NCBI GenBank assembly: GCA_024762475.1
Contig: JANTHJ010000018.1
Location: forward strand, 1-39,346
Length of the DNA: 39,346 bases
From: Chromatiales bacterium
GTDB taxonomy: Bacteria > Pseudomonadota > Gammaproteobacteria > Chromatiales > Chromatiaceae
Direction: 5' to 3'
Shown here: positions 2,739 through 8,205 of the stretch, one piece after another
Layout: the number at the start of each line of letters is the position of its first letter
Numbering within the stretch: the first letter of the stretch is position 1
The notes under the pieces: generated by a model
Databases searched by the model: none
What the model was told of the DNA's origin: nothing
The model's input: the letters and a program-made list of their open reading frames with translations, nothing else
Program-made: the position numbers and the translations under genes

Positions 2739-3268
2739 ACCTCGCCAAGATCGGCATTCTCACCGTCTCCGACCGCGCCAGCCGCGGTGAATACGAAGAC
2801 CTGGGCGGCCCGGCCATCCGCGACTGGCTGGACAAGGCCCTCGCCTCGCCCTGGGAGGATGTGGCACGCCTGGTCCCGGACGAGCAGGACCAGGTCGAGG
2901 CCGTATTGGGCGAGCTATGCGACGAGGAACATTGCTGTCTGGTGGTCACCACCGGGGGCACCGGACCCGCCCCGCGCGATATCACCCCAGAGGCCACCGA
3001 GGCGGTATGTGAGAAGATGATGCCCGGCTTCGGCGAGCTGATGCGCTCGGTCTCGCTGCAGTATGTGCCCACCGCGATCCTGTCGCGCCAGACCGCCGGT
3101 ATCCGGGGCCAATCCCTGATCGTCAACCTGCCCGGCAAGCCCAGCGCCATCGCCGATTGCCTCGAAGCGGTCTTCCCCGCCATCCCCTACTGCATCGACC
3201 TGATCGGCGGGCCGCGTCTGGAGACCCAAGAAGCGTTCATCAAGGCCTTTCGGCCCAAGGGGGCCTGA
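2735..3268 (+). CDS. mogA: Molybdopterin adenylyltransferase
   Basis: MogA adenylates molybdopterin before molybdate insertion, late in molybdenum cofactor synthesis in the cytosol. The 177-residue protein matches single-domain MogA in length. It starts with a Rossmann-like strand, ILTVSDRASRGEYEDLGGP (8-26), carries the molybdopterin-binding TTGGTGPAPRD (72-82), and ends with MRSVSLQYVPTAILSRQ and LIVNLPGKPSA, both diagnostic of MogA rather than MoaB or the MoeA domain. ATG 2735 overlaps the antiporter stop by four bases and has GGAGG at 2723-2727. The coupling to an antiporter gene is unusual but may be only positional. The downstream DUF2789 gene is convergent with a 10-base gap. Confidence 0.93.
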   Translation: MNLAKIGILTVSDRASRGEYEDLGGPAIRDWLDKALASPWEDVARLVPDEQDQVEAVLGELCDEEHCCLVVTTGGTGPAPRDITPEATEAVCEKMMPGFGELMRSVSLQYVPTAILSRQTAGIRGQSLIVNLPGKPSAIADCLEAVFPAIPYCIDLIGGPRLETQEAFIKAFRPKGA

Positions 3269-3278
3269 GGCCGGCTGG

Positions 3279-3515
3279 TTACTTGTGCAACAGGGCGTTG
3301 AGTTCGTCGATCACCTCGGCCCAGTCGGCATCCTTGCGCAACCCCTCACGCAGAAACTCGGCCTGCGCGGGGTTCCAGAAGGGCGCCTCCTCGATCGGTT
3401 GATCGGGGCCAAGGGAATGGCTGGCGATGAATTGGTCGATCGATTCGGGATCGTCGGGCAGGCCGAGCTGTTCGAACAGGCCGGCCAGATCGTAGACCGG
3501 TTCTTCCAGGGTCAT
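3279..3515 (-). CDS. DUF2789 family small protein
   Basis: A 78-residue acidic protein with no known function that matches the DUF2789 family of gammaproteobacteria (PF10982, from memory). Characteristic features are the N-terminal LFEQLGLP segment, the central APFWNPAQAEFLREGL stretch and the C-terminal DADWAEVIDELNALLH. It lacks a signal peptide and membrane segments, so a cytosolic helical protein is expected. I chose ATG 3515 because GGAGG sits about seven bases upstream and because family homology begins there; the open frame runs further upstream to 3626 but passes through the terminator hairpin at 3553-3584 and is not believable. The terminator isolates this gene from the minus-strand genes to its right, so it must have its own promoter within about 40 bases. 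Confidence 0.85.
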   Translation of the reverse strand: MTLEEPVYDLAGLFEQLGLPDDPESIDQFIASHSLGPDQPIEEAPFWNPAQAEFLREGLRKDADWAEVIDELNALLHK

Positions 3516-3552
3516 CGGGCATCCTCCGGGCAGGGTTCTGCAAAGACTACAT

Positions 3553-3584
3553 AAAAAAGGGCCCACGATGGGTATCGTGGGCCC
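3553..3584 (-). terminator. Rho-independent terminator, minus strand
   Basis: A perfect 11-bp stem, GGGCCCACGAT with ATCGTGGGCCC, encloses a four-base loop at 3570-3573. Read on the minus strand it is followed directly by six T residues (3558-3553). On the plus strand there is no T tract, so it works in the minus direction only. It ends transcripts arriving from the sulfotransferase and membrane-protein genes and lies 38 bases upstream of the DUF2789 start. Confidence 0.88.
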
Positions 3585-4016
3585 GAAGGGCGCTAATTCA
3601 AGCGCCGGAGGAGGATCGGAGAGCAAACATGAAGTTCACTGTCGCTACCCTTAACGGCTGCCTCGACAGATCCTTTAGAACTTTTTTCGATATTTTTCCG
3701 GGGAGCGCCAAGCCCAGTCCTACCAGGTTTGCCGACCTCACCCGGGAGCCCTGGGCTCTCAACGACCACAGGAGGTCCTACAGGGAGGTCGACCGGACGC
3801 ACCGAAACACGGGGCATGGGCTCTTCTGCCGCGAGAGTACGTCGGGCAGACGAAACCTCGTACAAACCGCAAGAGACCCAGTGGCTCAAGACGATCGCGC
3901 CAGAGCAGGCCATCGTACTTTCGGATAGCCTGCCTTGCATCGAATCGTTCGAATACACCCTGAATTCAAACAACACCGTGGCCCTACACCTCCACGAGCA
4001 TCCCATGGGGGATACC
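3585..4016. other. Unresolved stretch; two overlapping candidate reading frames
   Basis: No recognisable gene. On the minus strand an open frame from ATG 4006 to the stop at 3593 would encode 137 residues, rich in Cys, Ser, Arg and Pro, with a short Gly-x-y-like run (GLPGEVGKPGRTG); its stop lies nine bases before the terminator, which favours a minus-strand transcript ending here. On the plus strand an open frame from 3729 or 3816 gives a more protein-like stretch around 3867-4040 (TQWLKTIAPEQAIVLSDSL), but it runs on to 4178 antisense to the membrane-protein gene. The two frames share their third codon positions, so GC-rich wobble does not tell them apart. A perfect palindrome CTCAGGCCTGAG at 4016-4027 overlaps the stop of the next gene. 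It may be a decayed gene or an untranslated tail. Confidence 0.3.
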
Positions 4017-4601
4017 TCAGGCCTGAGCCCGCTGAATGTCACTGGCCACTCGCAAAACAGACAAACCCACCAGCAGAAAATGTATCGCCAAGTAGAACAG
4101 AAGCAATCTGTCAAAAAAGCCGTAGTCCATCTCTATTCGTACGCTCAGGTCCAGAATGGTTGTCACAAAGACTGCTGAAAGCATCCCGCCGTTTCCTAAG
4201 ACATACAACCTATACATTCGATTGCCAAACCTGCCATATAGCGATTTCCACATCCTCCTGCCAGTATAGAAAAATGTGGCGAACGGCAGCAGAAATGCCA
4301 GATCGAGCCACCGCCCTCCTATATGAAAGTATAAGAAGAGCAAATATCCAAACGGAACGATATGCGCAATGATATGTGCACGACCAAATATACTTATCTC
4401 CCTGAATCCACCGTTATAAATCATGCTCAGACGCACCAGGCCATGGAATAGCAAGACGCTGTTGGTCGCCAAGGCCGATATGAGCAACGGGGTGACGATC
4501 GACGTCGGCACATCGGCCATATATGCAACGACTGTTGCCATCCATAATAGCGTTGCCACAACCGCCATTGATCTCATGAAAAAATTCATAGTGAAATTCA
4601 T
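4017..4601 (-). CDS. Unknown multi-pass membrane protein, low GC
   Basis: I do not recognise the family. From ATG 4601 the product has 194 residues and about six hydrophobic helices, with a basic loop between helices 4 and 5 (TGRRMWKSLYGRFGNRMYRL). The codons are AT-rich compared with the flanking genes (TTT, ATA, TAT, TTA are common), which suggests transfer from another source. The start is uncertain: the frame can open at TTG 4628, but bases 4612-4713 are a copy of an inverted-repeat element, so that TTG and the next residues derive from the repeat; in-frame ATGs follow at 4601, 4589 and 4577, none with a good ribosome-binding site. The gene may have lost its original 5' end when the element landed. 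It lies downstream of the sulfotransferase on the same strand, about 70-100 bases away, and before a terminator. Confidence 0.6.
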   Translation of the reverse strand: MNFTMNFFMRSMAVVATLLWMATVVAYMADVPTSIVTPLLISALATNSVLLFHGLVRLSMIYNGGFREISIFGRAHIIAHIVPFGYLLFLYFHIGGRWLDLAFLLPFATFFYTGRRMWKSLYGRFGNRMYRLYVLGNGGMLSAVFVTTILDLSVRIEMDYGFFDRLLLFYLAIHFLLVGLSVLRVASDIQRAQA

Positions 4602-4611
4602 ATATGACTGT

Positions 4612-4713
4612 GTTGCGGATCTTCGCAATAGCCTTCCGTTATGTGCGATCCGTGCCTTGAACCTGGCGAGTATTTACATGATCCACTCGCGTCAGAGTCA
4701 ATCAGAAGTTCCC
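4612..4713 (-). repeat. Diverged, partial copy of the inverted-repeat element also found at 6945-7106
   Basis: Read on the minus strand from 4713, the sequence begins GGGAACTTCTGATTGA and continues with a block that matches 6945-7047 with one single-base gap. In the best 44-base block (GGATCGCAC and CTATTGCGAAGAT included) I count 37 identities by hand. The right half of the element, including its second terminal repeat, is not recognisable on the other side. The copy straddles the 3' end of the sulfotransferase gene and the 5' end of the membrane-protein gene. Confidence 0.75.
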
Positions 4714-5945
4714 AAATAGGCTTGAAATGACTCATTGTAGTCGGAGAAACGCTCCAGAATGGCCTGCTGAGACAGCCCAAAATCCTCCGGGGAATATCGA
4801 TGTACCCCGTGTTTGTTCTTTGGATTCTCCGACAGATAGGCTTGCATGCTCGATCTCGCCTCTTGTGTCAACTCAAGACCGAAGTGGTCATACATGTCCT
4901 GTATTGCCCCTATTGGATCACTTACCAGATCCCGGTAACCAAGATCGAAAAATGAATGCGAAGGCAAAGAAGTCCGATCGGTCAGATACCGCCCCATATC
5001 GGTAGACAACCGGCCCAACACCTGTCGTCCAAGTTCCCGAATATCGATGGAATGATAATATACACCCCTGTATACGAGGTTCAGACTTGCCCATGATGAA
5101 ACCGAATTGACCGGGTTTCTATGTATGTGGACGAAGCATGCATCTGGGTAGACCTCAAGAATGGAACGAACTGCTGCCAGGTGGTCGGGGGATTTCAGCA
5201 GCCATCGCCTACCTGGATATTTCCATTGAAGCGCTTGCAACACACGCCTATGGTAACGGTATGTCGGTCCATGATCTGCCTGATCGAGCCAACGTGAATA
5301 TTCGGGCACATCGAATCCCCCGACCAATGCCTGGGTCGCGAAGCCCTGCATGAGAATCGGCGTACATTCCTCGGGCCCTTTCGGAGTAAAGGCGTGCACC
5401 TTGTCTATTTCAGGCATCAGGTATTTTAGGAATCGCTGCATCCATCTTGCTTGTCTTATCCTTGGGTCGGTCGCTTCCGTATACCGACCCTTGGGCGGTA
5501 CTTGCGAAATGAAGGCCTCCCAGTTCCTCAGAAATCGGTGATCCGGATCCTGTGCGAGCAGATTGAATAGCAAGGTGGTTCCACTTCGGGGCAAACCAAG
5601 CACGATTATGGGTCGGGCAATGTCTTGAGAGAGTATTTCAGGATGCTGGCGCACCAGATTCACGTTCCTCAGGCGATGCATCAGCATCTGAATCACCATC
5701 TGTCGGACATAGAATCGTCCGAAGGGATGATGGGTACGTACTTGCCGAAAAGCGGCAAGGAGCGCCTTCAGTCCCGCCTCGAATCCATTGCCGCCAAAAT
5801 CTTTCAGGCCAGTCTTTCCCATGGCCGCATGGGTAATCTCGTCGAACGAGAACGACCTTTTGTCCATTTTTTCCCGCGAGAGAAGGTTCCAGGCCCGTAT
5901 CAGCAACGGCTGGGGCGGCCTGATCAGGTTGTTTTGCTTTGACAC
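4698..5945 (-). CDS. PAPS-dependent sulfotransferase family protein
   Basis: A 415-residue member of the Sulfotransfer_3-type family, expected to move sulfate from PAPS to a hydroxyl or amine of a glycan, lipid or small molecule; the substrate is unknown. The 5'-phosphosulfate loop is VLGLPRSGTTLL (115-126). A LLKSPDHL motif (249-256) and the 3'-phosphate site FVHIHRNPVNSVSS (271-284) follow in the usual order. There is no signal peptide or membrane helix. The start is GTG 5945, preceded by GGAGGAG with about nine bases between. The final residues LGTSD and the TGA stop fall inside the end of the inverted-repeat element copy at 4612-4713, so the natural C-terminus may have been replaced. GC content is visibly lower than in neighbouring housekeeping genes. 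The membrane-protein gene downstream may be a partner. Confidence 0.88.
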   Translation of the reverse strand: MSKQNNLIRPPQPLLIRAWNLLSREKMDKRSFSFDEITHAAMGKTGLKDFGGNGFEAGLKALLAAFRQVRTHHPFGRFYVRQMVIQMLMHRLRNVNLVRQHPEILSQDIARPIIVLGLPRSGTTLLFNLLAQDPDHRFLRNWEAFISQVPPKGRYTEATDPRIRQARWMQRFLKYLMPEIDKVHAFTPKGPEECTPILMQGFATQALVGGFDVPEYSRWLDQADHGPTYRYHRRVLQALQWKYPGRRWLLKSPDHLAAVRSILEVYPDACFVHIHRNPVNSVSSWASLNLVYRGVYYHSIDIRELGRQVLGRLSTDMGRYLTDRTSLPSHSFFDLGYRDLVSDPIGAIQDMYDHFGLELTQEARSSMQAYLSENPKNKHGVHRYSPEDFGLSQQAILERFSDYNESFQAYLGTSD

Positions 5946-6539
5946 TGCCTATCGCTCCTCCGACTTCTCGTCCAAATGGATCGACGGGTCGCTCTGGGGT
6001 CTCTTCAACCGGCTCGCCGCGAATGTTTCCCCGAGGCAAGCATTGGTCATGCCGAGATGGACGCTCTCAGGCAGATTTCCGCTCCAGCCAACAGCCCGGA
6101 CTGTCAACCAGAAAAAAAACGGGTGAGGCCCCCCCGGGTCGGTACGTGCGACACCCGGCGCGGGCCCGATAGCATAGTGCCACGTGTCCAAACACGAAGC
6201 GCCCCTTACCTTTCCTAAGGTTATCAGTTGCTTCCAGCGACCGACTGAATTGTTCCGGGCGATGCGGTGATGGATCCAGAGAGTCGCAGGCAAATCAATT
6301 TAGACGACTTGTAGCAACTCATGATGCGAAACACCTCCCGAATTCGAAACAGGGGATTGCCGGCACGGGGCAAATAAGGGGCGGGAAACCGCCAAATCAG
6401 CAAGGGTAGCGCCACAGTTGACCAGCGGGGACCCGCATCAAACCCCCGGGGATCTCTCGAGGAAGGCCTGAAAATTTCAGTCTTTCATCTCCGGCCACTA
6501 CCTGCTCCGAAGAGCTAGGGAGGCACATTCTGAAGAGGA
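5946..6539. other. 594-base gene-free gap between sulfotransferase and thioredoxin genes
   Basis: No open frame here looks like a protein by composition or motif. A minus-strand frame of 114 codons (6293 to 5949) stops just before the sulfotransferase start, but it crosses the U-rich hairpin at 6112-6157 and has no familiar segment. A TTGACA-like hexamer lies on the minus strand near 6104-6109 without a matching -10. The gap probably carries the sulfotransferase promoter and the 3' end of the thioredoxin transcript; it may also hold decayed sequence. Confidence 0.4.
6112..6157 (-). terminator. Possible terminator with eight U residues, minus strand
   Basis: On the minus strand a GC-rich block is followed by eight Ts (6119-6112). 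CGGGTG at 6157-6152 can pair with CACCCG at 6125-6120 directly before the T run. The loop is long (26 bases) but can fold further, with GTCG and CGAC as an inner stem. It would end thioredoxin transcription before the sulfotransferase. Weaker than the terminator at 3553-3584 because of the long loop. Confidence 0.42.
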
Positions 6540-6887
6540 CTAGGCGGTCTGCAGCCGGTCGTCTAGCCACTCTTGAATCCAATGGGTCGGACGCGAGCCA
6601 CTGAATCTTCCCAACTCTTCCCCGTTGCGGAACAGGATCACGGTCGGAAACCCTCGCAGGCGGTAGTGCCCCGCCAGCTTCATGTTCTCCCCCTCGTCGA
6701 CCTCCACCTTGGCCAGTCGCACCTCACCTTCCCGTTCTGTGACCACCCGCTGCAGGTGCGGGGCGATGGCATGGCAGGGGGCACACCAATCGGCCCAGAA
6801 ATCCACCAGGATCGGCCGCTCGCGGCTGGCCCCGATCACCTGGGCCTCGAAATCGGGGAGGTCGACACTGAATATGTACCCTTGCAT
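6540..6887 (-). CDS. Small thioredoxin-domain protein (WCAPC active site)
   Basis: A 115-residue cytosolic thioredoxin-fold protein. The order is typical: N-terminal strand, ILVDFWADWCAPCHAIAPHL (residues 26-45) with the CAPC redox centre, KVEVDEG, and the cis-proline segment RGFPTVILF (78-86). The active site has Ala in place of the Gly of classical WCGPC, as in YbbN/CnoX-like and other non-canonical thioredoxins; the TPR half of CnoX is absent. It should reduce or exchange disulfides, but the partner is unknown. ATG 6887 is the start; TAG at 6540-6542 ends it. It is isolated: the repeat element lies upstream and a 594-base gap downstream. Composition is closer to the housekeeping genes than to the sulfotransferase patch. 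Confidence 0.88.
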   Translation of the reverse strand: MQGYIFSVDLPDFEAQVIGASRERPILVDFWADWCAPCHAIAPHLQRVVTEREGEVRLAKVEVDEGENMKLAGHYRLRGFPTVILFRNGEELGRFSGSRPTHWIQEWLDDRLQTA

Positions 6888-6917
6888 ACCGCTATCCTGA
6901 GGAATATCTGATCAATT

Positions 6918-6941
6918 CCTCCCCCTGCTTGCGGAGGGAGG
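6918..6941. repeat. Hairpin repeat, left of the inverted-repeat element
   Basis: CCTCCC at 6918-6923 pairs with GGGAGG at 6936-6941, with TGCTTGC in the loop. A related hairpin with the complementary loop motif lies at 7136-7155. The two bracket the element at 6945-7106. Confidence 0.6.
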
Positions 6942-6944
6942 TTA

Positions 6945-7106
6945 GGGAAGCTCTGATTAATCCTGGCGCGAGCAGATTGCGGCGAAAAATCGTCCAGTTC
7001 AAGGCGCGGATCGCACGTAATAGCTGGCTATTGCGAAGATTCGCAACGCGGAAATGGGCGATTTAGCGCCGCAAGATGCCGTGTTACGAATTGATCAGAG
7101 CTTCCC
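6945..7106. mobile_element. MITE-like inverted-repeat element, 162 bp, flanked by TA
   Basis: The left end GGGAAGCTCTGATTAAT and the right end ATTGATCAGAGCTTCCC are inverted repeats with one mismatch over 17 bases. A TA dinucleotide stands on each side (6943-6944 and 7107-7108), which fits a two-base target duplication as made by IS630/Tc1-mariner transposases. There is no open frame for a transposase, so movement would need one in trans. A diverged partial copy lies at 4612-4713 in the opposite orientation. The internal sequence contains GGATCGCACGTAATAGC and CTATTGCGAAGATTCGCAAC, the best conserved parts. Confidence 0.8.
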
Positions 7107-7135
7107 TAGGAGGGGGGTAAGCCGTCGCCCCGCTC

Positions 7136-7155
7136 TTCCCCCACAAGCGGGGGAA
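7136..7155. repeat. Hairpin repeat, right of the inverted-repeat element
   Basis: TTCCCCC at 7136-7142 and GGGGGAA at 7149-7155 form a perfect 7-bp stem around ACAAGC. Read in reverse, the loop GCTTGT resembles GCTTGC in the hairpin at 6918-6941, so both belong to one class of short palindromic intergenic repeat. The rest of the 6888-7275 gap holds only these repeats and the hemC leader. Confidence 0.6.
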
Positions 7156-7275
7156 AGTGAAAAATCGAATGCTTCAGGCCCTGCCGGGCGCGAAGTATAG
7201 AGCAGCTTTGTATCGCCCGGCTGCAGGCTTTACCATTGCCGCACCCGCGAATCCCGCAGCCCCGGCAGCCGCATC

Positions 7276-8205
7276 ATGACCGACACCATTCGTATCGCCA
7301 CCCGCAAATCCCCCCTCGCCATGTGGCAGGCCGAACATGTCGCCGATGCCCTGCGTGCCGCTCACTCCGGACTGCAGGTCGAAATCCTGGGCATGAGCAC
7401 CCAGGGCGACAAGATCCTCGACACCCCGCTGGCCAAGATCGGCGGCAAGGGCCTGTTCGTCAAGGAGCTGGAGGCGCGCATGCTCGAGGGTGAGGCGGAC
7501 ATTGCCGTGCATTCCATGAAGGATGTACCGGTTGCGCTGCCCGCGGGGCTGCATCTGGCGGTGACCATGGCGCGCGAGGATCCGCGCGACGCCTTCGTGA
7601 GCAATCGCTTCGTCAATCTGAACGATCTCCCCGAAGGGGCGGTGGTCGGCACCTCCAGCCTGCGCCGCCAGTGCCAGCTGGCGGACCGGCGCCCCGACCT
7701 GCAGATCCGCTCCCTTAGGGGCAACGTGAACACCCGTCTGCGCAAGCTGGACGAGGGCGAGTACGATGCGGTGATCCTGGCCGCTGCCGGCCTGATCCGG
7801 CTCGGCTTCGGTGAGCGCATCCGCATCGCCCTCGATCCTGGCATAAGCCTGCCGGCCATCGGCCAGGGCGCGGTGGGCATCGAATGCCGCAGCGACGATG
7901 AGCGCGTGAATGAACTGCTGGCACCGCTGCATCACCCCGACACCGCCGACCGGGTACATGCCGAGCGCGCCATGAACGCCCGCCTCGAGGGCGGCTGCCA
8001 GGTACCGATCGGTGGCCACGCGGTGCTGGAGGGCGACCAACTCTGGCTGCGCGGCCTGGTGGGCACGGTGGATGGCAGCGAGATCGTGCGCGGCGAGATC
8101 CGCGGACCCCGCGACCAGGCCGCGGCGTTGGGCAATGCCCTGGCAGAAGAGCTGCTCGCCCACGGGGCGGCCGATATTCTCAAGGAACTCTACGCCGACG
8201 CATGA
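7276..8205 (+). CDS. hemC: Hydroxymethylbilane synthase (porphobilinogen deaminase)
   Basis: HemC joins four porphobilinogen units head to tail into hydroxymethylbilane in the cytosol. The 309-residue length fits the family. Visible motifs are [18 protein letters not shown] near the N-terminus, [12 protein letters not shown] (55-66), AVHSMKDVP (78-86) with the catalytic Asp, [11 protein letters not shown] (125-135), and [11 protein letters not shown] (149-158). Cys241 in [12 protein letters not shown] is the expected anchor of the dipyrromethane cofactor. ATG 7276 gives the normal N-terminus. It heads the hemC-D-X-Y cluster; its stop overlaps hemD as ATGA. Nothing is missing from the catalytic set I can check. 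Confidence 0.97.

Follow-up and report, generated by a model that had tools for sequence, protein, structure and literature searches.

A foldback MITE remnant supplies the stop codon and the final four residues of a sulfotransferase from a Chromatiales genome

Where a mobile repeat lies across the junction of two genes, the question is which of their ends it made and whether either gene was harmed. Such a junction, between a sulfotransferase gene and a gene frame for a predicted membrane protein, occurs in the 39,346-bp stretch of a Chromatiales genome analysed here (the window; Table 1), and the first-pass annotation held that an insertion had cut or reshaped both genes, so that their ends may not be ancestral. 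On the minus strand, 4712-4612 could be aligned with 6946-7047 with one single-base gap, so the earlier alignment to the element at 6945-7047 holds in this slightly trimmed form; the best ungapped stretch of 44 bases it had singled out is also real, with 38 identities instead of the 37 counted.

Table 1. Coordinates of the features at the gene junction and of the repeats in the window.
Feature	Position	Strand	Details
Low-GC segment (52.9%) enclosing the two genes and the partial MITE	3690..6545 (ends approximate)		absent at this place in three congeners
Membrane-protein frame	4017..4628	-	203 codons from TTG 4628; one homologue, residues 18-198, 33-35% identity
Old, incomplete copy of the 160-bp MITE	4612..4712	-	keeps the left arm and the centre, with ~60 bp gone on the right; own-genome match of 80% over 106 bp
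GGAAGG-CTA-TTG, Shine-Dalgarno-like	4626..4637	-	3 nt before TTG; in the diverged part of the copy
GGA ACT TCT GAT TGA	4698..4712	-	end of the sulfotransferase frame (four codons and the stop), from the terminal repeat
TTTG adjoining the terminal repeat	4713..4716	-	presumed target site; partner duplicate gone with the right end
Sulfotransferase, 415 aa	4698..5945	-	PF13469, E = 8.9e-43; homologues 29-38% identical
Second MITE-like repeat	6901..7184 (right end approximate)	+	related terminal repeat; split by the 160-bp MITE
Intact 160-bp MITE	6946..7105	+	flanks TTAG (6942-6945) and CTAG (7106-7109)

Chance similarity as the source of this match is refuted and its probability virtually nil: no more than 25 identities were reached in 100 shuffles of the partner, the minus strand of 4560-4760 matched another copy in the draft genome (3.01 Mb in 190 contigs) with E = 2.7e-20, along with many further copies, and nothing counted for chance.

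A genome-wide search for further copies, which the first-pass annotation had called for, yielded them in number. With the intact copy as query, at least 40 places in the genome were matched (the best 40 of 107 candidates were scored), and a longer form of ~200 bp, enlarged by an insert close to its centre, matched ~20 places, a few of them shared with the 160-bp list; these are counts of places and not exact copy counts, as the repeat often runs into contig ends. Both forms possessed 18-bp repeats at their termini, as expected of a MITE, and these ends (GGAAGCTCTGATYAATTC) were found, at most two mismatches being allowed, at 49 sites in each orientation, compared to none in either for the reversed control. 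The duplication test was applied to 38 copies (L003 left out), five of which were skipped for an unresolved end. Among the remaining 33, the flanking 4-mers were identical in 17 (shuffled mean 3.0) and agreed at three or four of the four bases in 28 (shuffled mean 12.5). The family thus has the target-site duplications of a MITE, 4 bp long, and the bases that prevail at the four positions (T/C, T, A, A/G) spell YTAR, the IS5-type target. The consensus was predicted to fold into a full-length hairpin of -99 kcal/mol, which, with at least 40 places, gives the copy number and hairpin of a MITE. The MITE-like nature proposed earlier was thereby borne out by terminal repeats, duplications and folding alike.

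The intact copy is missing from the corresponding place in the congener G004 and interrupts a second repeat. Once joined, its flanks aligned over the joint to uninterrupted copies of that outer repeat (L161, L018, L164, L151 and L156); the recreated outer repeat is an empty site, which shows that the 160-bp element moves as a unit. Related copies were found in 13 of the 55 genomes searched (the query genome counted), including five of seven congeners, so that the repeat extends to further genera of the same family and class. Two elements of ~60 bp (L162, 1505-1564; L163, 1460-1519) consist of hardly more than two terminal repeats.

The copy at the junction is the remnant of such a foldback MITE with IS5-type target duplications. 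Its identity to the consensus was 73.9% (over a stretch that takes in a few flanking columns), the lowest among 17 copies compared, and well under the 88-96% of the 16 full copies; it may thus be of another age or origin than they are. Its likeness to certain other copies extends to 4608. A search for the lost right ~60 bp in the sequence downstream of 4612 gave E = 0.44 at best. As the right end has gone together with its duplicate, TTTG is the presumed target of this copy; at another copy (L017) TTTG is perfectly duplicated. A search of Rfam over 3250-7300 gave one chance-level match only, under its gathering score, and a promoter scan of 3600-7200 found none (shuffles averaged 2.9).

The sulfotransferase is securely assigned to its family (147.5 bits against a gathering score of 27), and its alignment to a solved relative of 414 residues (2z6v) runs over positions 34-409. 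Its frame ends in TTG GGA ACT TCT GAT TGA, giving a protein end of QAY-L-GTSD. The earlier reading, in which LGTSD and TGA all came from the terminal repeat, stands for GTSD and the stop; the Leu codon TTG (4715-4713) sits in the flanking TTTG, outside the element. In the same frame the MITE consensus reads GGA AGC TCT GAT TAA, so any gene entering in that frame would stop at the same place. Since the stop and the last four residues come from the MITE, the sulfotransferase end is not ancestral, as first suggested, and accordingly none of 19 aligned homologues ended in LGTSD. Among these homologues likeness dropped off soon after a conserved RFxxY-like motif, and their tails past the conserved Tyr column measured 2-27 residues (median 10). 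With a tail of 12 residues, nothing conserved has been lost: judged by alignment, the enzyme has its conserved part in full, and the insertion altered the last few residues only. This end was thus reshaped as claimed, and a cut is not supported.

The closest sulfotransferase homologues found were 37-38% identical, with no close insertion-free one among them to show the ancestral last residues. The gene was absent from all seven congeners searched, a scan of genome contigs gave no relative, and a tblastn search of plasmids returned sulfotransferases at most 37% identical among the matches listed (ten of 53 records), all 53 lying under 60%.

Concerning the membrane-protein frame, the TTG at 4628 does lie within the partial copy, as first noticed, and no other start codon of the frame precedes it, which is no proof of its use; it is a candidate start only. 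The copy does not reach the alternative starts at ATG 4601, 4589 and 4577. The only relative found (locus L083 of genome G054) aligned over 181 residues, and as this alignment begins at residue 18, the conserved part of the protein lies outside the MITE and the claim that the membrane protein had been cut is not supported. A scan of contigs with the membrane-protein alignment recovered one locus (L147), probably from the same genome as G054, and Pfam, NCBIfam and PHROGs gave no family above chance. None of the neighbours of the homologue in L083 matched a sulfotransferase, so the locus offers no ancestral junction; an adjacent frame there is, we presume, glycosyltransferase-like.

Taken together, the junction is very probably explained by insertion of a foldback MITE with IS5-type duplications at the 3' end of the sulfotransferase gene, with a neutral tail as the outcome and a later deletion of the right end. 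The element would have entered the YTAR-like site TTTG within the last few sulfotransferase codons, and the gene would have been closed again at once by a new, harmless tail, because the terminal repeat carries stops in two frames. A later deletion, stopping a little short of the membrane-protein gene, would then have taken the right end, after which the partial copy would have drifted with no function of its own. That the insertion instead left both genes damaged, the sulfotransferase truncated and the membrane protein shortened at its N-terminus, is very unlikely: the right part of the MITE and some amount of neighbouring DNA are indeed gone, and ATG 4601, 4589 and 4577 lack a Shine-Dalgarno sequence, but the sulfotransferase tail is of typical length and the membrane-protein homologue starts at about the residue-18 methionine.

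The degraded copy might also have been put to use, now giving the membrane protein its ribosome-binding site, its TTG start and an element-derived N-terminal extension. GGAAGG before TTG 4628 had the best duplex energy of the five starts scored (-5.7 kcal/mol, compared to -2.7 for ATG 4568, the second best, +0.6 for ATG 4601 and +0.4 for both ATG 4589 and 4577), and three bases around it differ from those of the nearest MITE copies. The 3-nt spacing is short, however, and the homologue lacks an extension of this kind, having a possible start of its own in a GTG that follows a strong Shine-Dalgarno-like sequence one codon ahead of the aligned part; we regard this use of the TTG as improbable. 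We would likewise give a low probability to the wider proposal that the degraded MITE is the working junction of a horizontally acquired pair, its end stopping the upstream gene and its mutated centre providing the downstream ribosome-binding site and TTG.

The insertion at the sulfotransferase gene might have happened elsewhere. Both genes lie in a segment (~3690-6545) with a GC content of 52.9% compared to 65.3% in the remaining window, and for this reason the segment was most likely acquired. The site was compared in three of the seven congeners (G004, G006 and G003), in all of which the flanking genes, encoding a DUF2789 protein and, from its sequence, a putative thioredoxin-like protein, adjoin without it. 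The MITE may accordingly have been inside the segment on arrival, the event having taken place in the donor; the absence of the segment from these congeners, the spread of the repeat family to other genera and the partial copy's standing as the most diverged of those compared are all in keeping with this. Against it, the nearest relatives of the partial copy, among all copies collected, are in its own genome (80%), the best copies in congeners reaching 77-78%, and an origin in the donor is possible but rather unlikely.

Insertion at gene ends is not confined to this junction. In a survey of 39 copies, 18 gene sides were inspected and ten frames were searched in Pfam (eight with a family, L012 and L118 without), the gene calls and the expectation resting on a rough score for codon usage whose training set was the window. 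At six other copies the stop of a neighbouring gene with a Pfam family falls inside the element or touches the four bases beside it; the neighbours are a response regulator (L002), a LysR regulator (L004), Cas6 (L111), a Na/Pi cotransporter (L116, where the flanking duplication is not clean), OpcA (L131, where the other end of the copy is unresolved) and Ogt (L121). The copies at L002, L004, L111 and L131 lie at gene stop codons, that at L111, of the long form (1501-1704), directly on the stop codon of Cas6. Ogt kept its conserved core to ERERVG, beyond which it has LGDL and a stop codon that is read from the terminal repeat; this tail was unlike those of six congener relatives, to which the core ahead of it aligned. 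The relative in G004 has one TAA within its match, past which the frame was read, and its long tail is therefore unreliable.

The stop was touched in the flanking four bases by five copies, compared to a crude expectation of 0.8-1.6. As the gene calls are rough and cases may be missed or misplaced, this is a hint only that insertion at stop codons is commoner than expected. The YTAR target contains TAA or TAG, so that a copy inserting at a stop codon doubles that stop, and MITEs can in this way settle at gene ends.

The ends of the family resemble, we assume, those of IS5. YTAR is reported as the duplication motif of IS5 (PMC10359306), so the two share their target. IS5 and other insertion sequences with a YTAR target are autonomous (PMC10359306 and PMC2266754), whereas no PF01609 transposase was found in the draft genome for the present family; IS711 is said to duplicate TA only (PMC2266754). 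A closer parallel in outcome is offered by QMITE1 and QMITE2 of Coxiella burnetii, for which PMC5896051 describes ~50 copies per genome, states that affected functional genes all carry the insert at the 3' end, and reports that a stop or a few new residues were added with hardly any change in protein length or mass. These 3'-end insertions, giving a stop or short new tail, are like those of the MITE in the window, and Table 2 of the same source includes ogt, recN and ruvB, Ogt being affected in the present genome too. The direct repeats of QMITEs are 2-3 or 7-11 nt long (PMC5896051), compared to the 4-nt YTAR here. The element would be a new family, and the event is of a known kind. A literature search with the letters of the terminal repeat gave, among the matches listed, only papers with unrelated titles, which does not by itself establish that this exact family is unpublished.

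Insertion of this sort is ordinary and mostly harmless, as known from other bacteria, and the junction is a small, clear case in which a mobile repeat has remade the end of a protein harmlessly. For annotation, neither the last residues of the sulfotransferase nor the earliest start codon in the membrane-protein frame should be read as ancestral. Near the low-GC segment, a second insertion (857-2733, with a 595-codon frame on the minus strand) is missing at the matching place in G004.
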